Shown in pieces: positions 7,514 to 29,419 of a DNA stretch of 34,162 nt. The stretch is from Anaerolineaceae bacterium (lineage in GTDB: Bacteria; Chloroflexota; Anaerolineae; Anaerolineales; Villigracilaceae): the NCBI GenBank assembly GCA_003598975.1, contig QZIJ01000140.1:1-34162 (forward strand). Reading direction: 5' to 3'. The notes beneath the pieces are model-generated. The model had not been told where the DNA came from and did not search any database. It saw nothing but the letters and a program-made list of their open reading frames with translations. The position numbers and the translations under genes were made by a program. Every line of letters begins with the position of its first letter. Within the stretch, counting starts at the first letter, position 1.

Positions 7514-8476
7514 TTACTCAAACCAAATCTCCTCTTCCTCCACCTTTCGCGGATCCATTGCAAATTTGGCATTTCCCGCCATCACCGACACAATACTCAT
7601 ATTCGGAGTCTTATCATCCGAACTTCGTAAATCCAAGTCTTTCTCGGTAAATTCTCTGCTCGCCCGCATAAAGCTCTCAAACATTGCCGTGAAAACCGCC
7701 GCCTCATTTGCCCCATCTCCACCGATCAAGACCTCATCATAACCATGTTGTATCGAATAATCTGGTATATAGGAGCTCCCGCCCACAAACACCATCTCCA
7801 CCAGCCCAGTCGCCTCATTTTTTACCGCCAGCCACCCATATACCTCCGCCGGACTATACACCGTCGCCCCACCTGTCGTAACTGGCGGACTACTCCTTTG
7901 TGCATCAATCTGCGCTCTCCACCAATCTTTTATCTGGCTCCAATTATCTGGCGAGATCACCACTGTCCGAATATTTTTCAGGCTCACCCCACCTGCTTCA
8001 GTTACTACTTTGTTGGTCTTAAATTCTGGGTAACCTGGGTTCCCCACGATCCACATCCACTCCGTCCCGTCAGGGCTACTGGCAGGCAGGAAATAGTCGT
8101 GCTCGGCCAGCCAGGTCAATTTTTCTTCGTGAGTAGGATTAGTCTTGATTAGTGTACTTGCCCAATAATCCGCATTCGCGGGCCCGTCCACCAATGCGTC
8201 AATCCCGTCCTGCCACAATCCGTGCGGATCCTTTGGCTCCAGTCCTGCACACCAGGTCTCCACATCTTCAGGATGCAGACAGCCTACAGTTTGCGGTCGC
8301 AATTCCACCACGATCTCGGGGGTGGGGGAGGGGGTGACAGTCACTTCGGGAGTGACTGTCACCTCGGCAGGCGCGGGTAAGACCTCCGAGGTTTCTGAAA
8401 CCTCGGAGGTCTGCATGGCAACAGGTGCGCAGGCGGTGAGTAAAACAACCAGCAAAAAGGGCAGAATCCGTTTCAT
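7514..8476 (-). CDS. Lipoprotein with repeat-built linker, unknown function
   Basis: A 320-residue lipoprotein with signal and lipobox LLTAC (Cys16). The linker after the Cys (residues 22-52) is low complexity: TSEVSETSEV is coded by the palindrome at 8380-8412 and TVTPEVTVTP by a second palindrome at 8334-8362. The remaining domain of about 260 residues has WCAGLEPKDPHGLW and many Trp/Tyr residues and ends in an acidic tail; I do not recognise it. AAGGA is a good ribosome site. It heads the three-gene exported cassette downstream of the YbaK-like gene. Confidence 0.7.
   Translation of the reverse strand: MKRILPFLLVVLLTACAPVAMQTSEVSETSEVLPAPAEVTVTPEVTVTPSPTPEIVVELRPQTVGCLHPEDVETWCAGLEPKDPHGLWQDGIDALVDGPANADYWASTLIKTNPTHEEKLTWLAEHDYFLPASSPDGTEWMWIVGNPGYPEFKTNKVVTEAGGVSLKNIRTVVISPDNWSQIKDWWRAQIDAQRSSPPVTTGGATVYSPAEVYGWLAVKNEATGLVEMVFVGGSSYIPDYSIQHGYDEVLIGGDGANEAAVFTAMFESFMRASREFTEKDLDLRSSDDKTPNMSIVSVMAGNAKFAMDPRKVEEEEIWFE
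8334..8362. repeat. 12-bp-arm palindrome inside the lipoprotein gene
   Basis: GTGACAGTCACT (8334-8345), five-base loop, AGTGACTGTCAC (8351-8362), exact. The same TGACTGTCA core recurs in palindromes at 11087-11121 and 14003-14037. In frame it codes for VTVTPEVTVTP. Confidence 0.75.
8380..8412. repeat. TSEV palindrome, copy 1 (in-frame)
   Basis: Arms of 16 bases around a single central base, exact. Read on the minus strand it codes for QTSEVSETSEVL in the lipoprotein linker. A second copy at 28596-28628 lies in the same reading frame of an unrelated gene and differs at three positions, two of which are compensatory. Confidence 0.85.
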
Positions 8477-8516
8477 GATTTTTGTCCTTAAAAGAGCGAT
8501 TGAGCCTTATTCAATT

Positions 8517-9011
8517 TTATGCTCGTATCGCAATCTTCACTACCCTCGGCTTCGCGATGCGGAAGAAATCCGCGCATTTCATAAAAATAGACCGATCCAG
8601 CCTGCCCGCGTTGAAGACCACCTCCTCGTTTTCCTGAATCAACGGGTCGGCCAACACTTCGAGTTGGTCGTTGAATGAAAACGGGGGAATCGAGCCGATG
8701 ACGCAGCCCGTCAACGCTTCGGCTTTTTCGCGCGGGGCAAAGGCGGATTGCGTCCCGCCGAACAGGTCGCGGATGGCTTTCAAGTCCACGCGGCAATCAC
8801 CAGGGACGTTGGCCAGCGCGTAGCGCGGCGCGTCCTTGCCGAAGCGGATCATCACCACAATGGACTTCACCGCCTGCTCGGTGCGGTTGCCGCGGATTTT
8901 GGCGATGTGCTCCGTGCGGCCTTCGGATTCATGCTCGACCACGCGGAAATCCGCGCTTTCGCGCTCGAGCAATGCTTTGAGTTGTTCGTGGATGGAAAGC
9001 GGTTCGGTCAT
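8517..9011 (-). CDS. YbaK/EbsC-family aminoacyl-tRNA deacylase-like protein
   Basis: A 164-residue single-domain protein of the YbaK/ProX fold. Visible are KSIVVMIRFGKDAPRYALANVPGD, containing the conserved Lys and GD region, then FGGTQSAFAPREKAEALTGCVIGSIPPFSF, matching the family's G-x-S-PF segment, and a C-terminal VVFNAGRLDRSIFM. Members hydrolyse mischarged tRNA such as Cys-tRNA(Pro) or Ala-tRNA(Pro); the exact substrate here is not readable. GAGG lies six bases before the ATG. A DUF3592-like gene precedes it by 15 bases. Confidence 0.82.
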   Translation of the reverse strand: MTEPLSIHEQLKALLERESADFRVVEHESEGRTEHIAKIRGNRTEQAVKSIVVMIRFGKDAPRYALANVPGDCRVDLKAIRDLFGGTQSAFAPREKAEALTGCVIGSIPPFSFNDQLEVLADPLIQENEEVVFNAGRLDRSIFMKCADFFRIAKPRVVKIAIRA

Positions 9012-9026
9012 GTGATGCCTCGAATT

Positions 9027-9512
9027 TCAATCTTCCAAATCCTCGCCCCGTTGCCAGGCGCGAAACATGACAACGGTGGTCACCAACGCGGCGATCAACA
9101 TGGCGGGGATGATGAGGATCGGGAAGAGCCAACGCTCAGACCATTTATCGATCTGCGCGGTTTCGGGATTGGCAGGATCGTACAGCACAGGCATGCGCTC
9201 GCCAACCCGATAAGCAGGAGGGTCAGAGGCGGTGCCGCCCTCAAAGGAAAAGGCGCGGCCGCCCGCGTCAAATTCCACGATGGGCACGTAGGTGCAACAG
9301 CCGCCTTCACTATCACTTTGTTCGTTTAGGCGGACAACCGTCCCTTCAGTTTTTTCTCCGCTGGTCTGCAATTTCCAACTGATGTAGCCAGCGTACACAC
9401 CCCATAGGCAGAAAGCCATAAAAAACAGGTTTATTAAGACAGCCATACAGCCGATTTTCAGGCGATTTGCGCCTTTTTCAACGGTATCGAGCGTTTTGTT
9501 GAGCTTGGACAT
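9027..9512 (-). CDS. DUF3592-like membrane protein
   Basis: A 161-residue protein with two membrane segments (about 22-46 and 128-150) around an extracytoplasmic beta domain. The domain has the DUF3592 pattern: SGEKTEGTVV, then YVPIVEFDAGG, YRVGERMPVLYDPANPETAQID and a final W before the second helix. Function is unknown for the family. AGGTGA is a good ribosome site. It runs with the YbaK-like gene downstream and the thioesterase upstream. Confidence 0.82.
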   Translation of the reverse strand: MSKLNKTLDTVEKGANRLKIGCMAVLINLFFMAFCLWGVYAGYISWKLQTSGEKTEGTVVRLNEQSDSEGGCCTYVPIVEFDAGGRAFSFEGGTASDPPAYRVGERMPVLYDPANPETAQIDKWSERWLFPILIIPAMLIAALVTTVVMFRAWQRGEDLED

Positions 9513-9536
9513 GGGTCACCTTTAAAGTTGGGATTT

Positions 9537-9971
9537 TTAACGATCACGAATGCAGATCATCGTTGCCTGCATGATGGCGCAAAGCGATTCTTCCTCTTTC
9601 TCGATTGAAAACAACTTCCCCTCGCAGACTGTCAGCGTGCGGCCGTGTTTGATGACGCGTCCCTCGGCGCGAAATCGTTGACCTCGGGCGGGGGACAGCA
9701 AATTGACTTTGAACTCCACCGAAAGGACGCGCGAGGCGGCGGGCATCAGCGAGTAGGCCGCGTATCCACAGGCGGAATCCATCAGAGTGGTGACTATCCC
9801 CGCGTGCAGGAATCCGTCCTGCTGGGTGAAGCGCGCGTCGTAAGGCGCGGTCAGGTGGAACTCGCCCGCTTTTAACAATGCGATCTCCGCACCCAGGCTG
9901 GTCAGCATTTCCTGTTTTGAAAAACTGTCGCGCACGCGGGTCTTGAAATTGGGGTCAATGGAAGGATGCAT
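9537..9971 (-). CDS. PaaI-type thioesterase
   Basis: A 144-residue hotdog-fold protein from the ATG at 9971 (a GTG at 9995 would add eight residues). QDGFLHAGIVTTLMDSACGYAAYS is the PaaI/4HBT active-site region, with the H-x-G turn and catalytic Asp in the helix; VEFKVNLLSPARG and a late EGKLFS follow. It would hydrolyse acyl- or aryl-CoA thioesters. The neighbours do not indicate a pathway. No clear ribosome site is seen before the ATG. Confidence 0.85.
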   Translation of the reverse strand: MHPSIDPNFKTRVRDSFSKQEMLTSLGAEIALLKAGEFHLTAPYDARFTQQDGFLHAGIVTTLMDSACGYAAYSLMPAASRVLSVEFKVNLLSPARGQRFRAEGRVIKHGRTLTVCEGKLFSIEKEEESLCAIMQATMICIRDR

Positions 9972-10051
9972 GGGTTGAGCGCGGGGGCGTCGCACCTGTC
10001 CCGAGGAGAGAGACTCTACTCGTTGAGGTGCAACGCACTTTGATTTCTGGA

Positions 10052-11065
10052 TTACGCGATGTGCAAAATGCTTTCCTCGGTCTTGCCGTCCACTTGTTCG
10101 AGACGACGCCAGGCGGAGTTGTCGTTGAGCGTGATCCAGCGGCGCTCCTCCATGCGGTAGAACCAGTCCTTATCCTGTTTGTAGTAGATCTGGATTCCCG
10201 CCGCCTCCCAGATGTTGAGAATCTCGTTACTGTGTGAGTGGATTTGGTCGAAGTCCGTGGTGGCGCGCTGACCCATCTCGCTGTAGAGTTCGTTGAGTTC
10301 CAGCAATAGCGTGTTGACGCCTGCGGGCATGGTGTCTGCTTTCAGTCCGATGCGACGCGCCTCCTCCATCAGGATGGGATAAGTGTGGGAGGGATACTTC
10401 GAGTTGAGCGTGCTGGCGATCTGGTCTGCGACCGTCTCATCGGTGATGTGGAACGCCAGCAGTTCCTTGCAGAGCATGATGGAAAGCGACTCGGCGCGGT
10501 CCACAGCGCCGATGACGAGCGGATGCACGTGTTGGAACAGCGACTGGTACGGATTCTCTTTTTCGTGGTCTTCCTGCTTCTCCCACAGGCGGATGACGCG
10601 CGTCAACTCGTCGAGGCTGACGCTGACGCGGTCGTTGTCGCGGTCAATGGGGGAGAGGGAGTGCGTGAGGGACGTGTCCACGGCGGTGAGGTAGGCCATC
10701 GGCCCCATGAGGATTTCATTCGCGCCAAGCACGATCATCGTCGCGGCCGAGGCGCATTCCAGCGGGACAAGTGCAACGAGTCGGTCGCAATATTTTCTGA
10801 GCAGGTTCACCAGCCGCAACGATGACTGTCCGTTGCCGCCTCCCGACTTGATGAAGAGGTACATCTTTTCCTGGCGGCCGAGTTTTTCCAGCACCTCGTA
10901 CAACGCCACCACATCGTTTTGACAGACCGAACCCATCGGGTTGTTCCAGTAGGTGATGAGCGGACCGCCCAACTGCGCGGCGATCCTTGCGATGATGGCC
11001 TGTGTCTTGTCGAACAGGACGGGGGGCTGCTTGACCTTGATTTGCTCGCTGGTTTCTTCGGACAT
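10052..11065 (-). CDS. Serine dehydrogenase proteinase (SDH) family, Clp-fold serine protease
   Basis: A 337-residue protein of the SDH proteinase family, a ClpP/SppA-fold group. LFIKSGGGNGQ (residues 70-80) forms the oxyanion region and ECASAATMI (103-111) carries the probable nucleophile Ser106. There is no signal peptide, so it is cytoplasmic or on the inner membrane face. Family members degrade proteins and are often membrane-associated. Its two upstream genes encode membrane proteins, one with TPR repeats, which could dock it or present substrates (inference). AGGAG lies five bases before the ATG. Confidence 0.85.
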   Translation of the reverse strand: MSEETSEQIKVKQPPVLFDKTQAIIARIAAQLGGPLITYWNNPMGSVCQNDVVALYEVLEKLGRQEKMYLFIKSGGGNGQSSLRLVNLLRKYCDRLVALVPLECASAATMIVLGANEILMGPMAYLTAVDTSLTHSLSPIDRDNDRVSVSLDELTRVIRLWEKQEDHEKENPYQSLFQHVHPLVIGAVDRAESLSIMLCKELLAFHITDETVADQIASTLNSKYPSHTYPILMEEARRIGLKADTMPAGVNTLLLELNELYSEMGQRATTDFDQIHSHSNEILNIWEAAGIQIYYKQDKDWFYRMEERRWITLNDNSAWRRLEQVDGKTEESILHIA

Positions 11066-11086
11066 GGAGTCTCCTGTTGGGTGTGA

Positions 11087-11121
11087 GATATGACAATCAC
11101 TTTCAAAGTGACTGTCATATC
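11087..11121. repeat. 17-bp-arm palindrome, TGACTGTCA family, copy 2
   Basis: Arms 11087-11103 and 11105-11121 are reverse complements with one mismatch. It lies between the TPR gene and the proteinase gene and could attenuate or stabilise the transcript; there is no T-tract. Confidence 0.75.
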
Positions 11122-11126
11122 AAATC

Positions 11127-12803
11127 TTATTCCACAATGAATGTCCCACGCCGGACGAGATGGTTGTCAATGTACAACTCGACCGTGTACTCGCCCGAGG
11201 CGAAAATGAACAGGTTGCTGTAAGCATAACTGATGGGCTTGGCCGCGCCGCCCGATTCCTGCAATTTCCAGGTGCCGATAACGCGCAGGGTGGGGTCCTC
11301 GTAGCCGTTGCGATAAACCTTCCAAATCTCGGATTGTCCCGTAACCGCGCCACTGTAATCGAACAGGATGACCATCTCGTTGATTCCACTTGGGAAGGTG
11401 GATGCAATATTGTAACGGACAAATTTGCCATTTTCATCCACTTCTTCCTGCGCGAATTGGAAGGGCGTGGCGGTGAAGGTCACATTCGGGTTGGGGGCCG
11501 TGCCGCTGAACTCGAGGGCGGTGGTGGTGTCTTTGAGCAACTGGAACATGTTGCGTGCCTGTGCCCGCAGTTGTTCGTGATCGACCGCGATCAGGTTTCG
11601 GCTGGGAACCTGCGACCAGTATTTTGCGTTCCCGTCCAGTTCGAGCAGGAGGTTTTCGATGTCCTGCGCGGAGGCGTCCATGTAATACCAGAAGGAGGAG
11701 GGCGGCTGGACTCCCTGCTCGTGGGCACTGGTCACCTCGGCCACCGCGTCGTTGACGCCTTTGTAGTATTCCTTCTCGGCCTCGGCGAAGTCGCCGCGGA
11801 CCATCAATGCCAGCGCCAGGTTGAATTGGACGCCGAGCAGGCTCGGATCCTGGCGAAGGACGCGGCGATTCATGACTATGGCATCGTCGAATCGGCCGAG
11901 CAGATAATAGTTCCAGCCGATGTTCCAGCCTACGTTGGTGTCTTCGCGGCCGGCGTCCCAAGCGGCTTCGTAATCGGCGAGTGATGCCTGATAGTCTCCA
12001 CTGAAGTAATGGGCGTTGCCGCGTTCGTACAGCGCGTTGGCGTAGTCTGGCTCGATGAACAGCGCCCGGTCAAAGTCCGCGATGGCGCCGGTAGAGTCGC
12101 CGTACCAGGCCTTGCCGACCCCATCCGCATAGGCGTTGATGGCGTCTTCTGAGATGGTCGGGACGGGCAGAATCATGACGATCAATGCCCAGAGCGCGAC
12201 GATTACCGCAATGACGGATCCCAGCCCAATGAAGACGCCTCGCATCACCCCGCGCAGGGTGGTGGACAGGCCATAGAGCGAAAGCGTGACCGCCAGCAGG
12301 GTGAGATGGACGATGAAGATATTGGCGCGGTCGTCCCAAGCGTCGCTCAATTCGTTGTAGGCGGTGAACTTTTCGGTGAAACGCGTGCTTTCCACCACAT
12401 AGGTATCCGCTTCGTATTTTGCGACGTCGGGGCTAAAGCCAGAGGCCGGGTCGAAGTAGGGATTGGCGAAGATCGGCACGAGCGTGGCGATGTGGTCGCG
12501 CACCGCGCGGTAGCGGGACGCGGCGGCGGTATCCCCGGCGAGTTCGGCACCCAGGGCCTGCAAATCCAGTTCGTACCAGGTCTGGTAGGCGCCCTGTCGT
12601 TCATGGCTGACCCGCGTCTGTCCGCTGGTCTTGGCCTGCATGGCCTGGATGGCAAATTGTGATGAGGCGCGCTTGGCCTCGTTGCCCTTGCCTGCCGAGT
12701 AGGTCTGCATGGTGGTGATGACGGCCGCCAGGATGGCCACGCTCGCGATCAGGAAGGAGATCAGTTTTTCAGCACGCGTTTGGGGAGAGGTAGATTCGCT
12801 CAT
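11127..12803 (-). CDS. Membrane TPR protein with C-terminal beta domain
   Basis: A 558-residue protein. TM1 is at about 14-32, a helical extracytoplasmic part runs to 160, TM2 and TM3 are at about 162-182 and 188-213, then TPR-like helices span about 222-350 (AIADFDRALFIEPDYANALYE is a typical unit). The C-terminal 120 residues look like a beta-sandwich. With one TM before and two after the helical part, the TPR side faces opposite to it or away from the N-terminus depending on orientation. The first 215 residues share the layout of the neighbouring 212-residue protein. AGGAGG is a strong ribosome site. Likely a partner of the SDH-type proteinase (inference from gene order). Confidence 0.75.
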   Translation of the reverse strand: MSESTSPQTRAEKLISFLIASVAILAAVITTMQTYSAGKGNEAKRASSQFAIQAMQAKTSGQTRVSHERQGAYQTWYELDLQALGAELAGDTAAASRYRAVRDHIATLVPIFANPYFDPASGFSPDVAKYEADTYVVESTRFTEKFTAYNELSDAWDDRANIFIVHLTLLAVTLSLYGLSTTLRGVMRGVFIGLGSVIAVIVALWALIVMILPVPTISEDAINAYADGVGKAWYGDSTGAIADFDRALFIEPDYANALYERGNAHYFSGDYQASLADYEAAWDAGREDTNVGWNIGWNYYLLGRFDDAIVMNRRVLRQDPSLLGVQFNLALALMVRGDFAEAEKEYYKGVNDAVAEVTSAHEQGVQPPSSFWYYMDASAQDIENLLLELDGNAKYWSQVPSRNLIAVDHEQLRAQARNMFQLLKDTTTALEFSGTAPNPNVTFTATPFQFAQEEVDENGKFVRYNIASTFPSGINEMVILFDYSGAVTGQSEIWKVYRNGYEDPTLRVIGTWKLQESGGAAKPISYAYSNLFIFASGEYTVELYIDNHLVRRGTFIVE

Positions 12804-12813
12804 CTTGGCCTCC

Positions 12814-13452
12814 TCACATCACCAATTCGATCGTCAACGCGGCGAACGAACTGACCAACAATAAAAATCCGCCGAACGTTGCGAACAGGTACTTGATTTT
12901 GTGGTCCACGATTTGCGCCAGCGTGAAGAACCAGAAGGAAATGCCAAGCAGGATCAGCATCTGCACCAGCAGGTTCGACTTGGCCCGCAAGCCGTCCGCT
13001 TCGGTGTAATGGACATCGGGACGGGTGTCGCGGGCGCGCTGTTCATCGGCCAGTAACTCTTCCATTTCGCGCTCGCTGTCATACGTCCCATCGGGACGCA
13101 GGTAACGCGAGGGGAAGAAGATGGATTGCAGGCCATAGGCAATGCCCCACGAATCCGATTTCTGTTGTGTCAGTATATCGGCATCCGCAGGATTGGCTTG
13201 CAGGGCATCGTAGATCTTATAGCCCAGTTCGTTGTAGCGCGTGTAACTGAGAAATGCCTGGTAGTGCTCCGTCACTTTGATGGTGCTCAGCACCCAGGCC
13301 TCCTCGGCGTTGACGGTGGCCACCAGCCCGCGAAAATCGGCGTCGCCGGCGTCTGATGAAGCCACCGAAGCGCGCCAGGCTGTCAGCGCGCTGACCACGG
13401 TCACGATGGCGATCATTGAAGCAGTAAAAGTTTTAAAGTTTTCTGTTTTCAT
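12814..13452 (-). CDS. Membrane protein, sister in layout to the TPR protein's N-terminal part
   Basis: A 212-residue protein with TM1 at about 8-26, a helical extracytoplasmic region of about 130 residues, and two closing TM helices (about 161-180 and 186-208). This TM, helical, TM, TM plan matches residues 1-215 of the next gene, suggesting an ancient duplication or a heteromeric complex; sequence identity is low by eye. Not assigned to a family. GGAGGAG lies just before the ATG. It is the first gene of the three-gene block, ten bases before the TPR gene. Confidence 0.7.
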   Translation of the reverse strand: MKTENFKTFTASMIAIVTVVSALTAWRASVASSDAGDADFRGLVATVNAEEAWVLSTIKVTEHYQAFLSYTRYNELGYKIYDALQANPADADILTQQKSDSWGIAYGLQSIFFPSRYLRPDGTYDSEREMEELLADEQRARDTRPDVHYTEADGLRAKSNLLVQMLILLGISFWFFTLAQIVDHKIKYLFATFGGFLLLVSSFAALTIELVM

Positions 13453-13481
13453 GGCTCCTCCATTGGCGAATGGATGTGCAG

Positions 13482-13487
13482 AGTATA
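13482..13487 (-). promoter_or_regulatory. Candidate -10 for the proteinase block
   Basis: Read on the minus strand this is TATACT, about 30 bases before the ATG at 13452. No clear -35. It overlaps the divergent folK promoter region. Confidence 0.35.
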
Positions 13488-13497
13488 AACCAAATCA

Positions 13498-13506
13498 TGA
13501 TATATT
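13498..13506 (+). promoter_or_regulatory. Extended -10 of folK (TGATATATT)
   Basis: TG-A-TATATT, nine bases before the ATG at 13516, leaving almost no leader and no clear Shine-Dalgarno sequence. Confidence 0.4.
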
Positions 13507-13515
13507 CGCAGAGAT

Positions 13516-14028
13516 ATGACCCATGATGTTTACCTCGCCCTCGGGACCAATCTCGGGGACCGAATCGCCAACCTGCGCGCTGCCCTCCGTTCGCTCCAAC
13601 CTGACCTGGAACTGGTCGCGGTTTCGAAAATCTATGAGACTCCCCCCTGGGGTTTCACGGACCAACCCGCGTTCCTGAACATGACCGTCCACGCGCAGAC
13701 GACGCTCGAGCCAGAATCCCTCCTCAGAAAACTGAAGCAGGTCGAGGTCCAGATCGGACGCGAGCAGACCTTCCGCTGGGGGCCGCGCGTCATTGATCTC
13801 GATATCCTGTTCTACGACGATCTCGTCCTCGATTTGCCCGGACTCACCATCCCGCACAAGCGCCTGCACGAACGTGCCTTCGTCCTCGTCCCGCTGATGG
13901 ACATCGCTCCCGACCTCATCCATCCCGTGCTCGGCAAGACCATCCGCCAACTGCTGGCCGAAGTGGACTCGGGCGAGATTGTGTTGAATAACGAACAAAT
14001 TGAAACGACTGTCACCCATAAAAAGTGA
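13516..14028 (+). CDS. folK: Hydroxymethyldihydropteridine pyrophosphokinase
   Basis: A 170-residue HPPK. It transfers pyrophosphate from ATP to 6-hydroxymethyl-7,8-dihydropterin in folate synthesis. The N-terminus LALGTNLGDR and KIYETPPWG, the FLNM-V segment and the signature RWGPRVIDLDILFYDD (two Asp for Mg) are all present, followed by IPHKRLHERAFVLVPL. The last seven residues (TTVTHKK) and the stop are coded by the left arm and loop of the terminator hairpin, so the tail is repeat-derived. No other folate genes are adjacent. Confidence 0.93.
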   Translation: MTHDVYLALGTNLGDRIANLRAALRSLQPDLELVAVSKIYETPPWGFTDQPAFLNMTVHAQTTLEPESLLRKLKQVEVQIGREQTFRWGPRVIDLDILFYDDLVLDLPGLTIPHKRLHERAFVLVPLMDIAPDLIHPVLGKTIRQLLAEVDSGEIVLNNEQIETTVTHKK

Positions 14029-14040
14029 CAGTCGTTTTTG
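14003..14040 (+). terminator. folK terminator overlapping its 3' coding end
   Basis: AAACGACTGTCAC (14003-14015), nine-base loop, GTGACAGTCGTTT (14025-14037), exact, then further T residues. It shares the GACTGTCAC core with the palindromes at 8334 and 11087. Confidence 0.85.
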
Positions 14041-14151: not shown

Positions 14152-15333
<1,182 letters not shown>

Positions 15334-15394: not shown

Positions 15395-15838
15395 ATGTCT
15401 ATCAATGGTGTGGATATCACACAGGAATTTGGTTTGATCTGCGGTTCAGCATGGCTTGTATTTTATGCTGTGTTGATTTGGTTTGTATGGACGCGAAAAC
15501 CCAAGACATTGATTGGCAGGCGATGGAAGGCTGCGTGGCTGATTGGCGGGATTCCAATTTTGGGGATGCCGTTGTTATTTTCATCTATTATGTTGGGAAT
15601 TATATTAATCCAAGTAATGCAACCAAACTTGAGTAATCCTGATCTGCCCAAAAACTGGATGATGCTCTTTTCTTCCGTAATGACATTAGCGGCTTGTACT
15701 GCCCCACTTTCGGCGTTCATGGCGGTATTTTCAATTTTGGGCACATATTTTAACTACCGAAATATGCTTGATTACTGGTTGGATAAAATCGTTCCACCAT
15801 CAAAGGATGAGAAACCGTACGTGTGGGATGAATTGTGA
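15395..15838 (+). CDS. Small four-TM membrane protein, unknown
   Basis: A 147-residue protein from the ATG at 15395, with GAAGGTG upstream. Four hydrophobic stretches are visible: GLICGSAWLVFYAVLIWFVW, AAWLIGGIPILGMPLLF into MLGIILIQVM, a Met/Ala-rich MTLAACTAPLSAF, and FMAVFSILGTYF, then a soluble YVWDEL tail. It is more AT-rich than kbl. Its stop overlaps the GTG start of the transposase gene, so the two travel and translate together. No family recognised. Confidence 0.65.
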   Translation: MSINGVDITQEFGLICGSAWLVFYAVLIWFVWTRKPKTLIGRRWKAAWLIGGIPILGMPLLFSSIMLGIILIQVMQPNLSNPDLPKNWMMLFSSVMTLAACTAPLSAFMAVFSILGTYFNYRNMLDYWLDKIVPPSKDEKPYVWDEL

Positions 15839-16497
15839 ATGCTTCAAATCCAAATCGGTATCATCGTCGCTCCATCCGCCTGAAGGGATATGATTATTCG
15901 CGAGCGGGCGTGTATTTTGTCACCATCGTGACGTGGGGACGGTTAATGCTGTTCGGTAAAATAGAAAACGGGGAAATGAATATAAATCGGTATGGTGAAA
16001 TCGTTCAAAAATGGTGGAATGAAATCCCTGTCCATTTTCCAAATGTGGAAACAGGCGCGTTTGTCATCATGCCCAACCATGTCCATGGGATAATCATCAT
16101 TACCGATGAACGTAGGGGCACGGTCCCCGTGCCCTTTGACACAACCATCGCCCAACAAAAGGGTGAGGTGACCGCGCTGTCACAAAACAATGGGTATGGA
16201 ATCGAACAACAGGGCGGGGAGACCCCGCCCCTACAAAATAATGACATCGGTGAAACGGCACAGGGCGAGAGAACCTCGCCCCTACGAAAACCGACGTTGG
16301 GGCAAATTGTGGCATATTTCAAATATAAATCGACTAAGGAAATCAATGTAATGGATGGAGGACGAATCCAGAAATTGTGGCAGCGCAATTATTACGAGCA
16401 CATCGTTCGCAATGAACACGAAATGGAAAATATCTGGAACTACATCGAATCTAATCCCGCCATGTGGGCAACGGATGATGAAAACCCCAATAAATAA
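15835..16497 (+). CDS. REP-associated-type tyrosine transposase (Y1 family)
   Basis: A 220-residue single-stranded DNA transposase of the IS200/Y1 group. The HUH metal motif is MPNHVHG (His82, His84) and the likely catalytic Tyr is in RNYYEHIVR (186/187). The N-terminus RRSIRLKGYDYSRAGVYFVT and C-terminus WNYIESNPAMW are typical of RAYTs. Residues 93-151, between the HUH strand and TLGQIVAYFKYKSTKEIN, are a low-complexity insert coded by four similar units in the same frame, each with GGGC/GCCC-type inverted arms. The start is GTG, overlapping the previous stop. No IS ends are recognised. It ends at a strong terminator. Confidence 0.85.
   Translation: MNASNPNRYHRRSIRLKGYDYSRAGVYFVTIVTWGRLMLFGKIENGEMNINRYGEIVQKWWNEIPVHFPNVETGAFVIMPNHVHGIIIITDERRGTVPVPFDTTIAQQKGEVTALSQNNGYGIEQQGGETPPLQNNDIGETAQGERTSPLRKPTLGQIVAYFKYKSTKEINVMDGGRIQKLWQRNYYEHIVRNEHEMENIWNYIESNPAMWATDDENPNK
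16114..16286 (+). repeat. Four in-frame palindromic units inside the transposase gene
   Basis: Units begin at 16114, 16159, 16210 and 16261, spaced 45, 51 and 51 bases, all in the same codon phase. Three have clear arms: GGGCACGG/CCGTGCCC (16116-16134), GGGCGGGG/CCCCGCCC (16212-16230) and GGGCGAG/CTCGCCC (16263-16281); the second is degenerate. Units 3 and 4 share CGCCCCTAC after the arm. They code for RGTVPVPF, KGEVTALSQ, GGETPPLQ and GERTSPLR. Confidence 0.8.
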
Positions 16498-16531
16498 AAC
16501 ACGGCCTCCGAATTCTTCGGAGGCCGTGTTT
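16497..16531. terminator. Bidirectional terminator between transposase and hsp20
   Basis: 16-bp exact arms AAACACGGCCTCCGAA (16497-16512) and its reverse complement (16516-16531) with a three-base loop. The A-tract and T-tract serve both converging genes. Confidence 0.9.
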
Positions 16532-23066: not shown

Positions 23067-23228
23067 CTGTGCCATCCTTTGCCTTTCCCTTCATATTTGC
23101 AAGGGATGGGTTCCCGCCTCCATTCGGACCCGCGGCCGGTTTCTGCGCTGGAGGTTTCCGCGTCCTGAAAGCAGGTAATAAAAAGAGGAGTATAGCAGTC
23201 TTATTTGCAAATGAAATGAGGCTTTAAT

Positions 23229-24146
23229 ATGTACACATCCCCCACTTCTCAAACCCAAACTGAATTTTCCATCCATCCTCAAACCTTGCTGGGACACGTC
23301 TCCTTGACCGTGGCCAGCCTCGACAATCAGATCACCTTTTACCAGCAGGCGATGGGATTCAAACTCCACTGGCGCGAGAACAATCGCGCGGGGCTGGGTT
23401 CCGGCGGCGCGGACCTGCTCCGCTTGGTGGAAGAACCCAACGTCAAGAAGTACAGCCGCGTGACGGGACTCTATCACGCCGCCTATCTCTTCCCGAACCA
23501 ACGCGAGTTGGCGCGGGCGATGGCGCGCCTGTTTGTGCTGAAATATCCCAACTCGCCCACCGACCACATCATGACCAAGACCACCTATCTCGATGACCTG
23601 GAAGCCAACGGGATCGAACTCTATGCCGAGTCTCCCGAAGACGGGACGTGGTCACTGACGGATGGTCAGTACATCACCCGCCGCAAAGATGGCTCCCTGA
23701 GCAACGGACGCGAGCCGCTGGATTTGGATGAACTCTTCACTCATCTCAAGGAAGACGACAAGGTGGATGTCCCCATTCCAGCCGAAGCGCGAGTTGGACA
23801 CGTTCATCTCCACGTGCGCGACATTGACGAGGCGGTTGACTTCTACCACGGCGTGCTCGGCTTCGACGTGATGGGCGTGGTCAAGGATTTTCAAATGGCG
23901 TTCGTCTCCGCGGGCGGATACCATCATCATATCGGACTCAACACCTGGCAGGGACGCGGCGCGCCTCCGCCTCCCGCCGACGCGGTGGGACTGCGTCACT
24001 TCACGGTGGAACTGCCCAATCAGCAAGCGCTGGACGATGTCATCGCTCGGGTGGACGCGGCAGGCCTCCCGTCTAATCAGACCGATGATGGTTTGCTCGT
24101 CCACGATCCGTCACAGAATGGGGTGGTGTTGCGGGTGAAAGAGTAA
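23229..24146 (+). CDS. Two-domain VOC protein, CatE-like ring-cleavage dioxygenase
   Basis: A 305-residue protein with two vicinal-oxygen-chelate modules. The first starts LLGHVSLTVASLDNQITFYQQAMGF (about 20-45), the second VGHVHLHVRDIDEAVDFYHGVLGFDV (about 190-215), with metal-ligand His in each, and GGYHHHIGLNTW. This is the layout of YfiE/CatE-type catechol 2,3-dioxygenases; the substrate is uncertain and glyoxalase-like roles are possible. GAGG lies seven bases before the ATG. It is a single gene followed by a terminator and divergent from the kinase operon. Confidence 0.85.
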   Translation: MYTSPTSQTQTEFSIHPQTLLGHVSLTVASLDNQITFYQQAMGFKLHWRENNRAGLGSGGADLLRLVEEPNVKKYSRVTGLYHAAYLFPNQRELARAMARLFVLKYPNSPTDHIMTKTTYLDDLEANGIELYAESPEDGTWSLTDGQYITRRKDGSLSNGREPLDLDELFTHLKEDDKVDVPIPAEARVGHVHLHVRDIDEAVDFYHGVLGFDVMGVVKDFQMAFVSAGGYHHHIGLNTWQGRGAPPPPADAVGLRHFTVELPNQQALDDVIARVDAAGLPSNQTDDGLLVHDPSQNGVVLRVKE

Positions 24147-24162
24147 GTCAAAACCAGACATG

Positions 24163-24193
24163 ACTTCCCCAGACCAATCAGGTTTGGGGAAGT
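24163..24193 (+). terminator. Hairpin terminator after the VOC gene
   Basis: ACTTCCCCAGACC (24163-24175) and GGTTTGGGGAAGT (24181-24193) pair with one G-T wobble, five-base loop; the T-tract is weak. Confidence 0.7.
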
Positions 24194-24339
24194 TTGATTC
24201 TGGGGGATTGAACTCGCTTGCCCCTTTCCTCAATCCAAGTTATCCTTAAGGCATCCCCTTATTGGCATAAAGGTTATCCGCTTTTTCTGCGCGTAGCCTG
24301 TTCTTATTTTCGTCCAATCCCCAGAAAATGGAGGTTTCC

Positions 24340-26247
24340 ATGCGCGTCCACGTCCCTGAAAAATACGAGCGAAACGGCTGGCCGTCTGTCGAGCGTCCCG
24401 ATCTGACGCCGCCCGAAGGCTGGAGTTTGCCGCTCATCAACTCGGTTAATCGCGTCTATCAGAGTCGCCTCTCGCCCGATGGCGAGCGGATCGCGTTCAT
24501 CTGGAACCGCGAGGAGCAGGCGGATGTTTACGTCATGCCGTCGAAGGGCGGGTGGCCGAGCCGCGTTTCGTTCACGCGCGCCAGCACGCCCTATTGGTGG
24601 GATCGCGCCCCGCAGTGGTCGCCCGACGGCAAGTGGCTGGCCTTCCGCATGAAGGGAGACGTTCACATCGCCGACTCGCGCGGCGGGCTTCCCGTCAAAC
24701 TGCCTCTGCCGCTCGACGCGTCCGCTTCGCCCGCGTGGATGCCCGACAGCAATCAGATGGTCATCGCGATTCGTCCCGACGAGATTCCGCACCTCGCCAT
24801 GACTGACCGCGAGGGGACGTTCCTACGCGTCCTCACAAGGGACAGCGGCGAGGACGCCGACCCGCGTCCCTCCCCCGACGGGAAGTGGGTCGCGTACGTC
24901 CACTGGCCTGACGACGACCGCAACCGCCGCGACATCCGCCTCGTTGACCTCGCCTCGGGCGTGACGCGCGTGCTGGTGGGCGCGCCGAAGATGAAAGACT
25001 GGTTCCCGCGCTGGTCGCCCGACTCAAAATGGATCGCGTTCCTCTCGCAACGTACGGACTACAACCAGGTGTGGGTCATCCGCCCTGATGGGACGGAGAT
25101 GCGTCAGGTGACGGCTCTCGGCACGAACGTGGAGGAGTTTTCGTGGTCGCCCGATGGGACGCGTTTGGCGGTGATCGTCAACCGCCGCGGCAAACTCGAT
25201 TTGGCGGCGACCAACTTGACGTCAGGAAAGACCGAGGAGGTCAAGGCGGGGCGCGGAGTCTACTCGCGTCCGCAGTGGAGTCCCGACGGCGCGTACATCT
25301 ACGTCGAGTATGAAGATCCGATCACGCCGCCCGACATCCAGCGCATTGACGTGTCGAGCGGGCGCGCGAAACAGTTGACGTTTTCGAATCCGCCCGCGCT
25401 TGCGACCCTGCCGATGGTGATGCCCGAGGAGGCGATTTACAAAAGCGCTGATGGACTCGAAATCGCGGGCATTCTTTACAAGCCGAAAAATCCCAACGGC
25501 GCGGCGCTGGTGCATCCGCACGGAGGTCCGACCGAGCAGTTTGGGTACACGTGGGAAATTTTGATTCAGTATCTGGCCGCGAAGGGTTACACCGTGTTGT
25601 GCCCGAACTATCGAGGCTCGACGGGATATGGGCTGGCGTTCGAACATGCCAACTACAACAACTGGGGTGTCGGCGATGTGCAGGATTGCTTGAGCGCCGC
25701 GAAGTTTTTGGCCGACCTGCCTGGGATTGCCCCCGCGCGCCTCGGCATTTATGGCGCGAGTTACGGCGGCTATCTGACGGTGGCGAGCCTGGCGCGTGAC
25801 CCCGAGTTTCGATTCGCGTGCGGCGTGAGTCAGTATGGCGACGCGTCGCTGGTCAGTTCGTGGGCGCAGTGCGACCGCAACACGCGCCTGTACACCGAAA
25901 TGCAGATCGGACATCCGTCGGACAATTGGGAGGTCTTCATTGACGGCTCATCCATTCATCAGGTGGCGAACATCAAGTCGCCGCTGTTGCTGTTGCACGG
26001 ACTCGAAGACGAAGTGGTCGCGCCGCAATCGTCGGAAGAACTGGCCGAAGCCCTGCGCCGTCACAACAAGACCTTCGAGTACAAGACCTACGCGGGCGAG
26101 CCGCATGGATTCCAAAAACGCGCCACCGTTCTCGACGCGACGACGCGGCTGGAACGGTTTTTGGATTGGTATCTGTTGCCGCCGTCGGTGCCGAGTCCGC
26201 CGAGGATTGATCTGCCGTTGGTGGGGGGTGAGGATGATGAGGAGTAG
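24340..26247 (+). CDS. S9-family prolyl oligopeptidase-type peptidase
   Basis: A 635-residue cytoplasmic serine peptidase of the acylaminoacyl-peptidase/DPP-IV type. The N-terminal half is a beta-propeller of repeats marked SPDGERIAF, SPDGKWLAF, SPDGKWVAY, SPDSKWIAF, SPDGTRLAV. The C-terminal alpha/beta-hydrolase has HGGPTEQ, GASYGGY (Ser474), HGLEDEVV (Asp557) and GEPHGF (His589). It trims short or N-blocked peptides. There is no signal peptide. GGAGG lies five bases before the ATG at 24340; an upstream in-frame ATG covers the ribosome site and is rejected. Confidence 0.92.
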   Translation: MRVHVPEKYERNGWPSVERPDLTPPEGWSLPLINSVNRVYQSRLSPDGERIAFIWNREEQADVYVMPSKGGWPSRVSFTRASTPYWWDRAPQWSPDGKWLAFRMKGDVHIADSRGGLPVKLPLPLDASASPAWMPDSNQMVIAIRPDEIPHLAMTDREGTFLRVLTRDSGEDADPRPSPDGKWVAYVHWPDDDRNRRDIRLVDLASGVTRVLVGAPKMKDWFPRWSPDSKWIAFLSQRTDYNQVWVIRPDGTEMRQVTALGTNVEEFSWSPDGTRLAVIVNRRGKLDLAATNLTSGKTEEVKAGRGVYSRPQWSPDGAYIYVEYEDPITPPDIQRIDVSSGRAKQLTFSNPPALATLPMVMPEEAIYKSADGLEIAGILYKPKNPNGAALVHPHGGPTEQFGYTWEILIQYLAAKGYTVLCPNYRGSTGYGLAFEHANYNNWGVGDVQDCLSAAKFLADLPGIAPARLGIYGASYGGYLTVASLARDPEFRFACGVSQYGDASLVSSWAQCDRNTRLYTEMQIGHPSDNWEVFIDGSSIHQVANIKSPLLLLHGLEDEVVAPQSSEELAEALRRHNKTFEYKTYAGEPHGFQKRATVLDATTRLERFLDWYLLPPSVPSPPRIDLPLVGGEDDEE

Positions 26248-26253
26248 GGCTTT

Positions 26254-26320
26254 GGGACGCGGATAACGCGGATTGAACGGATGAACGCGGAGATGTTTAA
26301 TTTCTCCGCGTTCGTTTTTT
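26254..26320 (+). terminator. Repeat-derived terminator of the S9 peptidase gene
   Basis: 26254-26294 is a GGGACGCGGATAACGCGGAT-type dispersed repeat, found in reverse orientation at 29511-29552. Its end forms the hairpin GAACGCGGAGA (26283-26293) / TCTCCGCGTTC (26303-26313), exact, followed by six T, so the repeat acts as terminator. Confidence 0.8.
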
Positions 26321-26341
26321 ACAACACATAACAAATGTGCG

Positions 26342-26370
26342 TTGACCATGCGAGTCTTTGTGCATATAAT
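26342..26370 (+). promoter_or_regulatory. Near-consensus promoter of the AT-rich insert
   Basis: TTGACC (26342-26347), 17-base spacer, TATAAT (26365-26370). The predicted start near 26377 leaves an untranslated leader of about 115 bases before the ATG at 26493; I see no known riboswitch in it. Confidence 0.8.
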
Positions 26371-26492
26371 CAGGCTATCGTAGTTTACGTTGCACCTTTA
26401 ATCCACTGGGCAATCCCACAGGCTTTTTTCGACAAATATCCATTTGATTCATAAGCCAATCGAGCGCGAGTTTGTTTTCAAAGGAAAGGCAT

Positions 26493-27368
26493 ATGGACAT
26501 CATCGCTCTTTCGCAAGCATTGGTTTCATTGTTAGCCCCCATATTGCCATGGCTAGTTAAGGCTGGCGAAAAATCTGTTGAGGAGATTGGCAAGAAAATC
26601 GGGGAATCTTCTTGGAACTTTGCCAAAAAGATTTGGGCTCGTCTTTCCCCTAAACTAAATGCCAATCCTGTAGCGAAAGAAGCAGTTGCTGATGTGGCGC
26701 AAAATCCTAAAGATGAGGATTCAATCGCCGCTTTTCGTGGTCAATTAAAGAAGTTGTTGACATCTGATCCATCTTTGGCTCAAGAACTGTTTGCTCAAAT
26801 TAAGGATATTGAAGCGGTTTCAAGTCAGATCAACATAAACATTGGGAACATCAATGTAGGCGGCAATGTATACGGTGGGAATTTTGTCGGCGGCACAGGT
26901 AATGTCTTCAATAACGGAACGAACAATTACCACTACACAGTCAACATTGGGAAGATTGACAGGGTGGTCTATGGCAGAGAAAATCGTATGGCCGAAATGC
27001 AAGAAATCGAATTAAGTTTCTTGCAACCTGATAGCACATACCCAAAACATTCTTGGATAGATAAAGCAAATGTATTGGAAATCATTGCGGGACAAAACTC
27101 AAGAGTCACGGATGAAAAATGGGAGCCAACTGGATTTAACCATGCCGTATTACGGAATCTTTTGATTACCGAAATCAATCGTTGGACATTGAAAGGATGG
27201 GAATTAGTGGAGACTGATCCCGAAAAATTATTTATTTCAGAATACGACTCGGCAGAAACCATTGCTTCGGCTGTTGGCAGTCTGTTAAGTATTCCAACTG
27301 GAACTGCGCGGAGACATTGGAGAATCTATTACGGTGCTAGATTTCATGTCAGACGTTTCGTCGACTAA
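26493..27368 (+). CDS. Helical/Gly-Asn-rich protein of the AT-rich insert, unknown
   Basis: Not assigned to a family. A 291-residue protein from the ATG at 26493, with AAGGAAAGG just upstream. Residues 1-110 are helical and amphipathic (LVKAGEKSVEEIGKKIGESS), then NPKDEDSIAAFRGQLKKLL. Residues 112-150 are a Gly/Asn run (INVGGNVYGGNFVGGTGN) like short beta-solenoids. Residues 160-291 form a separate domain; ITEINRWTLKGWELVET recalls the DUF4177 pattern. The helical-plus-GGN layout is seen in proteins whose C-terminus varies, some in predicted immune or signalling systems (from memory). No enzyme motif is visible. The J-domain gene follows after 23 bases. Confidence 0.7.
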   Translation: MDIIALSQALVSLLAPILPWLVKAGEKSVEEIGKKIGESSWNFAKKIWARLSPKLNANPVAKEAVADVAQNPKDEDSIAAFRGQLKKLLTSDPSLAQELFAQIKDIEAVSSQININIGNINVGGNVYGGNFVGGTGNVFNNGTNNYHYTVNIGKIDRVVYGRENRMAEMQEIELSFLQPDSTYPKHSWIDKANVLEIIAGQNSRVTDEKWEPTGFNHAVLRNLLITEINRWTLKGWELVETDPEKLFISEYDSAETIASAVGSLLSIPTGTARRHWRIYYGARFHVRRFVD

Positions 27369-27391
27369 TTTCAACTTTGGAGGATTGAAAA

Positions 27392-28234
27392 ATGGCTACA
27401 AATTTACCAAATTACTACAAGGCATTGCAAGTTGACAATGAGGCAGAAACAGAAGTTATTGAAGTAGCATATAAACGTTTGGCTTTGAAATACCATCCTG
27501 ATGTTAATAAGTCGCCAAACGCCGAAGAAAAAATGAAACTGATAAATGAGGCAAGAAAAGTTTTGACCGATCCCAAAGAGCGAAGAAAATACGATCAAGA
27601 ATATTCGCAAGATAATCAGCGTCAAAGCGCACCCCCAAAAGCCAAGAAACAAGATGTTCCTGTCGAAGATGATATTTGGGAAGAAAAATCAATCCGAAAC
27701 TTGGCTACTCAAATAATTTTTGTTGTTCAGCAAGCGCTTAACCAAAAGAAATGGCGTATCGCGCAAGAAAAATTATATGCCTTTGAAGGACTTGGCAAAC
27801 CGTCTAAGGATGGTCCATTGCCAACCTTTACGTCGTTCCTGCCTGAATGGCAGAATGCAAAAAAATTGGATGAATTGGCGAATCAGCAATCTACCGAGTT
27901 TCGGGTTAAGTTGCAGAAGTATTCGTTCATCCTATACTGCACTGTTTTATCCTTTCTTGGTCTTGTGGCAGGAATAGGAGATGGGTCGCCAGGATTTTGG
28001 TTTCTATTGGGAATTGGGGGACTTATTATTGGCTTTGTCGTTGGGGCAATTGGAACAGCAGTGTATATGCAATGGTTCGCTGGCAAAAGAGATGAAGGGA
28101 CAGATATGTTTTTGGGAGTAATGACCCCTGTCATAATTGCCTTAGTGATTACTGTTGGTATCTATATCATTATGGGATATGCCATTCTTAAAGGACTCAG
28201 TATATCCTTCCAAAATGATAACAGGAGGCGGTAA
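27392..28234 (+). CDS. Membrane-anchored J-domain protein
   Basis: A 280-residue J protein. The N-terminal J domain (about 6-70) has HPD at 35-37 in ALKYHPDVN and the usual EARKVLTDPKERRKYD end. A charged linker, then a helical region around 98-170, then three TM helices (about 177-195, 202-228, 240-266) and a basic tail. It lacks the Gly/Phe and zinc domains of DnaJ, so it would bring DnaK to the membrane for a specific client, probably the product of the preceding gene (inference). GGAGG lies before the ATG. AT-rich like its partner. I see no terminator before the next gene. Confidence 0.85.
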   Translation: MATNLPNYYKALQVDNEAETEVIEVAYKRLALKYHPDVNKSPNAEEKMKLINEARKVLTDPKERRKYDQEYSQDNQRQSAPPKAKKQDVPVEDDIWEEKSIRNLATQIIFVVQQALNQKKWRIAQEKLYAFEGLGKPSKDGPLPTFTSFLPEWQNAKKLDELANQQSTEFRVKLQKYSFILYCTVLSFLGLVAGIGDGSPGFWFLLGIGGLIIGFVVGAIGTAVYMQWFAGKRDEGTDMFLGVMTPVIIALVITVGIYIIMGYAILKGLSISFQNDNRRR

Positions 28235-28252
28235 TAGCCTGTAAGCCTGAAA

Positions 28253-29419
28253 ATGACCGAATTCTTCCTCTACGACACCTTAACCTGGCCTGAAGTCGCC
28301 GATCTCCCTCGCGAAGCTCCCCTCGTTCTGCCGCTTGGTTCCTCCTTCGACACTTCGACTTCGCTCAGTGCAAGTTCCGAGAAACTCGCCGCGCAACTGG
28401 GACATCCCAACCGCCTCGGCATTCTCCCGTCTTTTCCCTTCGGCTGGCGCGGCAGTGGACTGGCTGTCCCTGAACCGCTGCTCTCCGCCTACATCGGCAA
28501 CCTGCTCGACAGTCTGCGCGACGATGGGTTTACGCGCGTGTACGCGTTGACTCCCCAAGGCATTGACCTCGGCCTCGGCGAATCCGCTCTCCGCCAGACC
28601 TCCGAGGTCTCAAAGACCTCGGAGGTCTTACCAAGCGACTCCGAACGCGGCAAAGTCATCCTCATCCCCATCGGCCACACCGAGCAACACGGATGCCACC
28701 TGCCCCTCAACGTGGACACGATCATCATTGACGCCATCGCGCAAGGGACGGCGAACAAAGTCCCTGAGCAGGCGTACACTCTGCCCGTCAATCCCTACGG
28801 CGTCAGCACGCACCGTTCCTCCTTTGCCGCGACCCTCAACGCGGGCGGACGCGCCTTCGAAGATTTCTGGCTCGGCGTCATTGACGTGCTCGCGGCGCGC
28901 GGCTTCGACCGCTTCTACTTCATGAGCGGACACGGCGGCAACATGTCGTTCCTCGTCAACATTACCAAGTACGCGGGCGAGCGTCACCGACGGATTTTCT
29001 GCGCCACGGCGTTTCTGCACACGGCGGGAAGAATCGGTTCTGTCGCGCTGGATAAATATCGCACCTCGCCTATCGGCGGGATGGGTCACGCCTGCGAACT
29101 GGAGACTTCGTATATGCTCCACCTGCGCCCCGGCCTCTGTCACATGGAGCGCGTGGTGGACGAGACCGACTTCGTCTCCACGCTCGACTACTACATGGAC
29201 TGGATCGAGGGCGGCAGTCTCATCGCCAACCCGCCCTGGGACGACGACAGCAAGACGGGCGCGTATGGTGCGGGCAGTCACGCCACCGCGGAGAAGGGAC
29301 GTCTCTGGCTGGAGGCCGCGGTCGAGGAGAAGGTCGGTCATGTGGCCGAGATCCACGAACAGCACCGTCGACGGGAAGAGAGACGGAACGCGGGGTATGG
29401 GTTGTGGGGGAAGAAGTAA
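28253..29419 (+). CDS. Creatininase-family amidohydrolase with degenerate N-terminal half-domain
   Basis: A 388-residue protein; the family is usually near 250. Residues 134-388 are a complete creatininase-type domain: IGHTEQHGCHLPLNVDT (Glu144, His146, Asp155), SGHGGN (His227) and GMGHACELETS (Glu282), the usual two-metal site. Residues 10-105 repeat its plan without ligands: LPLGSS for IPIGHTEQHG, LPSFPFG for LPVNPYG, GFTRVYALTPQG for GFDRFYFMSGHGG. The join (116-127) is the TSEV palindrome. Relatives cut cyclic amides or formamides; the substrate is unknown. No ribosome site at normal distance; GGAGG lies about 25 bases before the ATG. Confidence 0.85.
   Translation: MTEFFLYDTLTWPEVADLPREAPLVLPLGSSFDTSTSLSASSEKLAAQLGHPNRLGILPSFPFGWRGSGLAVPEPLLSAYIGNLLDSLRDDGFTRVYALTPQGIDLGLGESALRQTSEVSKTSEVLPSDSERGKVILIPIGHTEQHGCHLPLNVDTIIIDAIAQGTANKVPEQAYTLPVNPYGVSTHRSSFAATLNAGGRAFEDFWLGVIDVLAARGFDRFYFMSGHGGNMSFLVNITKYAGERHRRIFCATAFLHTAGRIGSVALDKYRTSPIGGMGHACELETSYMLHLRPGLCHMERVVDETDFVSTLDYYMDWIEGGSLIANPPWDDDSKTGAYGAGSHATAEKGRLWLEAAVEEKVGHVAEIHEQHRRREERRNAGYGLWGKK
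28341..28376 (+). repeat. CTTCGACTTCGCTCAG-type repeat in the creatininase gene
   Basis: A CTTCGACTTCGCTCAGTGCAAG stretch (reverse-complement style of the 2304-2337 repeat in gatA) codes for SFDTSTSLSASS in the degenerate half-domain, at the place where the catalytic EQHG would be. Confidence 0.55.
28596..28628. repeat. TSEV palindrome, copy 2 (in-frame)
   Basis: AGACCTCCGAGGTCT and AGACCTCGGAGGTCT, exact 15-base arms with a three-base centre. It codes for QTSEVSKTSEVL between the two halves of the creatininase-like protein. Compared with 8380-8412 (minus strand), three bases differ; T-A to C-G at one stem pair is compensatory. Confidence 0.85.

Follow-up and report, generated by a model that had tools for sequence, protein, structure and literature searches.

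How the same palindrome comes to be read in frame in two unrelated proteins is the question raised by a 34,162 bp contig (QZIJ01000140.1, assembly GCA_003598975.1) of an Anaerolineaceae bacterium in the phylum Chloroflexota, the whole of which (positions 1 to 34,162) is referred to here as the window. An earlier note on this sequence described two copies of a 33 nt palindrome, one in a lipoprotein linker and one in a creatininase-like protein. We find that these belong to a widely dispersed family (family A), whose members are probably small non-autonomous mobile elements, and that their likely mover is a clade of repetitive extragenic palindrome (REP)-associated tyrosine transposases (RAYTs).

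Two palindromes and their host genes

Both window palindromes have a perfect 15 bp stem and a 3 nt loop, 33 nt in total, and a single arm of either is itself almost palindromic. Re-reading of the sequence places them exactly where the earlier note had put them (Table 1), and the translations of the two open reading frames (ORFs) contain QTSEVS(E/K)TSEVL in frame in both, as it had reported. The 8380–8412 copy encodes QTSEVSETSEVL immediately behind a lipobox-like Cys (identified by eye), and the 28596–28628 copy encodes QTSEVSKTSEVL. Three bases distinguish the copies in the coding orientation, and at one stem position a T-A pair of one copy corresponds to C-G in the other. The suggestion that TSEV text is read in either orientation is also borne out, and follows from the symmetry and 33 nt length of the element. 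The placement of the second copy stands only in part: the insert is within a creatininase-family protein, but not between two halves of it, as the Pfam Creatininase match lies entirely after the insert. In 20 first-order Markov simulations of the window, none of the hairpins formed all 15 pairs; the window itself has three such hairpins, the two family A copies and a terminator-like one at 16498, and the window palindromes are not due to chance.

Homologues lacking a palindrome at the corresponding place are also found. One example is a homologue of the lipoprotein gene in a related genome (G003, 55% identity) that is without QTSEVSETSEV. At the creatininase site, co-varying palindromes are present in the window's own genome (G000) and in the same-genus G006, both encoding QTSEVSKTSEV. 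In three palindrome-free creatininase homologues (L147, L148 and L168) the linker contains other short repeats, e.g. a repeated CCCAATT in L147, and the spot thus seems to collect several kinds of repeat.

Table 1. Palindromes and palindrome-bearing genes of the window
Feature	Position	Strand	Description
Family A palindrome, AGACCTCCGAGGTTT-CTG-AAACCTCGGAGGTCT	8380..8412		TSEV phase, in frame, lipoprotein linker; covariance model 57.5 bits
Family A palindrome, AGACCTCCGAGGTCT-CAA-AGACCTCGGAGGTCT	28596..28628		TSEV phase, in frame, creatininase-family protein; covariance model 59 bits
Host gene 1, predicted lipoprotein (by eye)	7514..8476	-	No Pfam match
Host gene 2, creatininase-family protein	28253..29419	+	PF02633, residues 130-359
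Family B palindrome (GTGACAGTCAC type, 13/15 pairs)	8332..8364		In frame in the same lipoprotein linker (ORF 7514-8476); encodes EVTVTPEVTVTP
Family B palindrome (14/15 pairs)	11088..11120		Between ORFs 10052-11065(-) and 11127-12803(-)

A dispersed family of hairpins

Copies are far more numerous than the two in the window. In a set of 101 genomes (G000 and 100 relatives), exact family A arms are present in 16 of the 101, among them the own genome with three occurrences; a reversed control pattern gave zero in every genome. A covariance model has matches in 68 of 101 genomes, the own included, with 75 strand-hits at E≤0.01 in G000 and 125 in G006 (150 candidates scored per genome), corresponding to roughly half as many sites; among the matches listed there are 24 sites in G000 and 53 in G006. 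A scan of a contig database with the exact arms returned at least 118 stretches, and the 80 loci listed include Chloroflexota, Thiotrichaceae, Methylococcaceae, Desulfobacterales, Desulfuromonadales, Bacteroidota, Cyanobacteria and Latescibacteria. Many of these are metagenome-assembled, and isolates are represented too (e.g. Desulfonema magnum, Niabella ginsengisoli and Stenomitos frigidus).

The length is 33 nt in 134 of 161 exact-arm matches (from collected loci, some of which overlap), and the flanks of the exact-arm copies appear unrelated. There are co-varying subfamilies (e.g. AGACTTCCGAAGTCT, AGACCTCACAGGTCT and AGAACTCCGAGATTT, every one with a matching second arm), and those within one genome differ in arm sequence yet keep pairing. 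An alignment of 36 rows (33 distinct) shows double-sided change at 7 of 15 pairs, and 99.2% of its pairing cells are paired compared with at most 56.2% in slid controls; the rows were hand-picked (eleven of the 30 non-exact copies were included, most of them fully paired) and partly found by pairing, and the percentage is therefore not independent evidence, although the variety of arms is. Locus L117 (positions 23–155) has three 50 nt tandem units, each with one family A palindrome.

In 78 copies from G000 and G006 no stem extends past 15 bp, and the base directly outside the palindrome is A or C at a frequency of 0.76 and T at 0.06, a possible weak target preference. Target duplications in the same 78 copies number eight at 2 nt (against 4.1, sd 1.8), three at 3 nt (against 1.1, sd 1.1) and none at 4–6 nt; nothing clear emerges, and a duplication of 2–3 nt may occur. 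The target site duplication of a miniature inverted-repeat element of a DDE transposon is thus not seen. An Rfam scan of six sources matched only tRNA. Searches of open-licence PMC text for four arm strings found no paper, and a literature search, with supplements and figures outside its reach, found none naming the palindrome family. In the accessible parts of the papers cited here by PMC number, eight repeats of Thiomargarita are described as ‘typically palindromic’ (PMC4853749), and these may include the present family.

Copies within genes

We examined the position of 82 sites, using a hairpin finder that requires at least 13 of 15 pairs and 9 of 15 consensus letters and may admit a few unrelated palindromes. 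They come from 20 G000 and 41 G006 loci, which represent all 24 listed sites of the former and 48 of the 53 of the latter; genes were called with a crude home-made caller. Thirty-nine sites are within called genes, compared with a coding fraction of 0.83, and 43 are between them; 21 of the 43 intergenic sites are no more than 10 nt from a called gene boundary. The in-gene sites show the codon phase bias that the earlier note's comparison with coding repeats calls for: 31 are in the TSEV frame, seven in the next and one in the third, with 14.0 expected for TSEV (p=3.3e-8), and the 29 best-scoring genes give 21, 7 and 1. An independent but cruder test on exact-arm loci of other contigs, in which 88 of 130 copies had no clear ORF, is weaker (TSEV 23 of 42, expected fraction 0.37, p=0.015). 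The 33 nt length is found in 39 of 43 intergenic copies and 34 of 39 in-gene copies; being equally frequent outside genes, it looks like a property of the hairpin and not of coding.

Pfam scans of 20 in-gene hosts and the two window genes identify PheT, aconitase, SMC (where the insert falls within the hinge match), Eco57I-type methylases, PGI/PMI, CODH flavoprotein, acetyl-CoA synthetase, UroD, HemN-type, Sir2 and ABC transporter proteins. Several hosts are lipoprotein-like with the copy right behind the lipobox Cys, these being the window gene and genes in L283 (G000), L299, L304 and L306 (G006) and L177 (G005). Compared with solved structures, Sir2 has an insert of exactly 11 residues, aconitase a net gain of 10 and acetyl-CoA synthetase a net gain of five; the PGI/PMI structure alignment begins after the insert.

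Palindromes and RAYT genes

In genome G044 a RAYT gene sits between two family A copies, and its product, used as a query, has matches in 44 of the 101 genomes. Among 30 RAYT loci sampled for the RAYT first (L332 being the query's own locus), 20 have a hairpin, with a minimum of 13 of 15 pairs, inside the gene or no more than 200 nt from it, and in 12 of these 20 there are hairpins on both sides, the pair being unlike in L342. Hairpin density is 1.35/kb near the RAYT and 0.16/kb farther away, where some are cognate as well. The palindromes are of family A at ten of the 30 loci, of the GTGACAGTCAC type (family B) at six and of other types at four. Family A copies also adjoin RAYTs in Stenomitos, Leptolyngbyaceae, Thiotrichaceae, Niabella and Thermoflexia genomes.

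Palindrome type clusters on a RAYT tree: family A requires four changes compared with 11.2 when labels are shuffled (0 of 500 as low), and family B one compared with 5.7. The tree was built by a quick method from 57 rows, 33 of them labelled, and 12 of its 54 inner branches are starred; it omits L333 (broken frame), the fragment or edge rows L141, L340, L396, L400, L404, L406, L408 and L409, the duplicates L076, L088, L094 and L138, and L215, which had no match.

Two other candidates were set aside. Y1_Tnp proteins in general are present in 16 of 16 carriers, yet 17 loci with RAYT-like ORFs (among L184–L213) have no family A palindrome. For an R66-type RAYT in G066 there is a single palindrome 156 nt away, and no link is claimed because it is on one side only.

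The enzyme is RAYT-like by profile, matching PF01797 at 33.6 bits with a cut-off of 23; scores against NF047646 (cut-off 80) are divided, with 83.2 for the L215 RAYT and 65.9 for the L214 RAYT. Its best fold match in the PDB is 4er8, a RAYT bound to a REP hairpin, and the HUH and Tyr motifs and Y1 fold are present, with H59, H61 and Y129 invariant across 20 rows. For the motif that is W-Q in GTAG-reading classes, a loose pattern search of 70 RAYT-like proteins gave FQ in 35, FE in 15, WQ in four and another pair in nine, with none found in seven. Inspected by eye, L384 and L357 have each of the motifs of subclass 2.1 (Bertels group 1), namely NH[YF]H, FQ and Y[IV]HLNP, and six clade A rows have THYH, FQ and YIHANP or YIHMNP; on these motifs, clade A most resembles subclass 2.1.

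At six of the ten family A loci a palindrome is inside the RAYT gene itself, which in L333 is also interrupted by stops. The palindrome follows the HUH motif and precedes the next helix, a position where L384 and L385 keep a bare loop. In a model of the insert-free G044 enzyme this loop corresponds to residues 67–74. In a RAYT ORF of G006 (L302, 3242–4081), the stretch between the HUH and Tyr motifs contains two unlike in-frame family A palindromes separated by 9 nt.

Different palindromes in the same loops

Some protein loops have been occupied by different palindromes. One example is a loop in aconitase, which contains a family A copy in G000, AACCATCCGAAGGTT-TAG-AACCTTCGGATGGTT in G010, AACCTTGCGAAGGTT-CCG-AACCTTCGCAAGGTT in G012 and another palindrome in G005, and no palindrome in G004, G008, G009 or G011; the types thus differ between species and genera. 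G010 also has a RAYT with an adjoining palindrome of the CGAAGGTT type (L361). A second example is the CODH flavoprotein gene, in which three subfamilies are present at the same place in the same-genus G000, G006 and G005 (the G005 copy was taken from L130, which is identical to L218 of G005 over 4501 nt). Of 19 stem pairs that changed between orthologous sites, 13 are altered on both sides, all of them still paired, and six are one-sided; this set has ten comparisons at eight sites, the three CODH comparisons are not independent, and most of the copies were first found with a model that demands pairing. These same-site changes could be explained by repeated insertion where the protein tolerates it, by exchange in place or by correction through template switching.

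How are the palindromes spread?

By analogy with E. coli TnpA-REP and IS608, we propose that a clade of HUH/tyrosine transposases akin to TnpA-REP would recognize the hairpin of 15 bp stem and 3 nt loop as single-stranded DNA, cut at its foot and insert copies at other places, with no duplication of the target. An insertion within a gene would add 11 codons and keep the frame, because stem and loop together are 33 nt and usually free of stops. Selection would then retain those insertions that fall in loops and linkers able to tolerate them, predominantly in the frame reading the hydrophilic TSEVxxTSEV, and each RAYT clade would have its own palindromes. The family, its hairpin structure, the phase bias, the linkage to RAYT genes and the clustering of types on the RAYT tree are observations; that the palindromes are mobile and that causation runs from the transposase to the repeat is inferred. 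A bolder and more doubtful reading, which we put forward tentatively, is that a widespread RAYT lineage thought to be repeat-less writes a symmetric, frame-preserving 11-codon palindrome into conserved proteins, and that a copy already present can be replaced on the spot by one of another subfamily; it is prompted by the three palindromes at the CODH site in three same-genus genomes and the different types in the aconitase loop.

Copy number speaks for a RAYT as mover: median strand-hits are 34 in the 12 genomes with a clade A RAYT and 4 in the other 89, but this comparison (p=5e-4) ignores kinship, and the 12-genome set was scored by ourselves, with G092 left out (L348, a weak model hit inside the RAYT gene). 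Several observations weigh against a RAYT as mover. The own assembly, which is 84% complete, has no clade A RAYT, its best match being 42% identical (L356, with no hairpin near) alongside short pieces. No match to the L214 RAYT was obtained at E≤1e-10 in copy-rich genomes such as G063, G066, G012 and G021, there is no such RAYT in the complete genome of Desulfonema magnum, which has several copies, nor in nine of 22 genomes behind the exact-arm loci, and 10 of the 30 RAYT loci are without a hairpin. The L214 RAYT falls short of the NF047646 cut-off. On the tree, type C (two rows) is unclustered, with 2 changes compared with 2.0 shuffled, and some family A RAYTs (Niabella, Thiotrichaceae) are in another clade, for which transfer and convergence are both possible. 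Among the hosts, PheT gains a net single residue relative to its solved homologue, and there are few clean pairs of filled and empty sites in the DNA, because host loops are hypervariable (the creatininase and aconitase linkers vary too much).

Some of this would be expected if recombination or replication template switching spread or homogenized the palindromes, with the RAYT gene merely another host. Copy-rich genomes without such a RAYT fit this explanation, as do RAYT genes hosting copies in their own frame, and the two-sided changes at orthologous sites, 13 of 13 still paired, are what template-switch correction would produce. We nevertheless consider it unlikely, as new sites do not arise by template switching alone, the hairpins flank the gene on both sides at 12 of the 20 hairpin-bearing RAYT loci, and unlike RAYT clades have unlike palindromes. 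That clustering of type on the RAYT tree also speaks against immobile sites under selection, whether for binding of a nucleoid protein or regulator or as transcript-end hairpins such as terminators. The perfect symmetry would suit such a function, as would the 43 of 82 intergenic sites and the closeness of 21 of these to a gene boundary; however, the other 39 sites are in genes and mostly in one frame, the flanks appear unrelated, arms of subfamilies differ within a genome while pairing is retained, and no Rfam family other than tRNA was matched in the six sources, making this explanation quite improbable. The preference for a hydrophilic reading frame could alternatively be explained if TSEV repeats were linkers of an ordinary hydrophilic kind whose codons had become palindromic by convergence. 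This is scarcely credible, given that palindromes are also found between genes and in another frame, that pairing is retained at synonymous positions, and that identical arms recur across many phyla.

Relationship to known repeats

The likeness to Rickettsia palindromic elements proposed in the earlier note is supported as an analogy in another phylum: both are dispersed and palindromic, in frame in unrelated proteins (here 31 of 39 in one phase, with the 11-residue gap in Sir2), and the stems here have compensatory changes. RPE-1 is longer than 33 nt, and the present family, compared by description and not by sequence, differs further in occurring in other phyla and having an associated transposase clade. 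Intragenic REPs of R. conorii and O. terrae similarly provide in-frame palindromes in unrelated genes (PMC3733652). PARCEL is also a palindromic coding repeat that spans distant taxa and includes lipoproteins, but it is a 25-residue tandem repeat (PMC2996958) and the inserts here are mostly single and of 11 residues.

The closest parallels are with REP/REPIN sequences and their RAYTs (TnpA-REP, the IS200/IS605-related Y1 transposases; REPtron), which share dispersed hairpin repeats, cognate copies next to a Y1 transposase gene of low copy number and a palindrome type that tracks the transposase clade, here largely so. Cognate copies likewise flank the RAYT in the present family. Canonical REPs, however, are mostly extragenic and have a GTAG/GTGG foot; family A is a symmetric 15+3+15 hairpin without this tag, and nearly half of its copies are in genes. 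In 225 copies, GT[AG]G at offsets 0, 1 and 2 was found 0, 1 and 1 times at the 5′ foot and 2, 1 and 0 times at the 3′ foot, with backgrounds per offset of 2.1 and 1.6, and is not enriched. The RAYT classes that read GTAG have W-Q, as far as described (PMC6006769), and the enzymes here F-Q or F-E. Quentin 2018 reports no REP-like sequence near subclass 2.1, and describes subclass 2.4 as the only one with REPs inside its tnpA-REP genes (PMC6006769, in the parts accessible). Subclass 2.4 (Bertels group 4) shares with family A an in-frame palindrome that lies within the transposase gene, in the stretch from the HuH to the Tyr motif (PMC6006769); here the clade is another, with motifs near subclass 2.1 (N/T-HYH, FQ, YIHxNP), and the palindromes lack the double GTAG/CTAC foot. 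Di Nocera 2013 describes intragenic REPs, and tyrosine transposases flanked by terminal inverted repeats (TIRs), in PMC3733652. The latter (TIRtron/TIRYT) are similar in pairing RAYT-like genes with multi-copy, non-GTAG inverted repeats, some of them self-complementary; the GGGGWSAS motif of some TIRs is missing from family A arms, and the two are set apart here by published description only. In-gene REPs are thus already known (PMC3733652, PMC6006769, as accessible). What is new is a palindrome family that is symmetric, has no tag and preserves the frame, together with its RAYT clade and the repeated colonization of the same protein loops.

Other hairpins of the window

The first family B palindrome is 15 nt away from the family A copy in the lipoprotein gene, and palindromes of its type flank a RAYT clade different from that of family A. 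A degenerate GTGACAGTC-type hairpin at 14004–14036 (12 of 15 pairs) is possibly a third family B copy. The window also has a second RAYT-like ORF (15835–16497, rightwards), which scores 64 bits against NF047646, under the cut-off, and by eye has NHVH, WQ and YIESNP motifs. There are three in-frame hairpins with GTAG/CTAC feet in the middle of this ORF (feet near 16112, 16231 and 16282), an arrangement that resembles the one published for subclass 2.4, with REPs within tnpA-REP. A perfect 15 bp hairpin at 16498–16530 directly follows it and has a terminator-like look.

Significance

We know of no mobilizer reported so far for protein-coding palindromes such as the Rickettsia elements. The coding palindromes described here come with a candidate transposase clade and clade-linked sequences, and this, together with named carrier strains (Niabella ginsengisoli, Stenomitos frigidus), makes the question of mobilization testable. 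A 33-base palindrome encoding 11 apparently harmless residues is scattered over the genomes of many unrelated bacteria, often in working genes, and if the reading proposed here is true, it would provide a steady route by which bacterial proteins acquire 11-residue loops.

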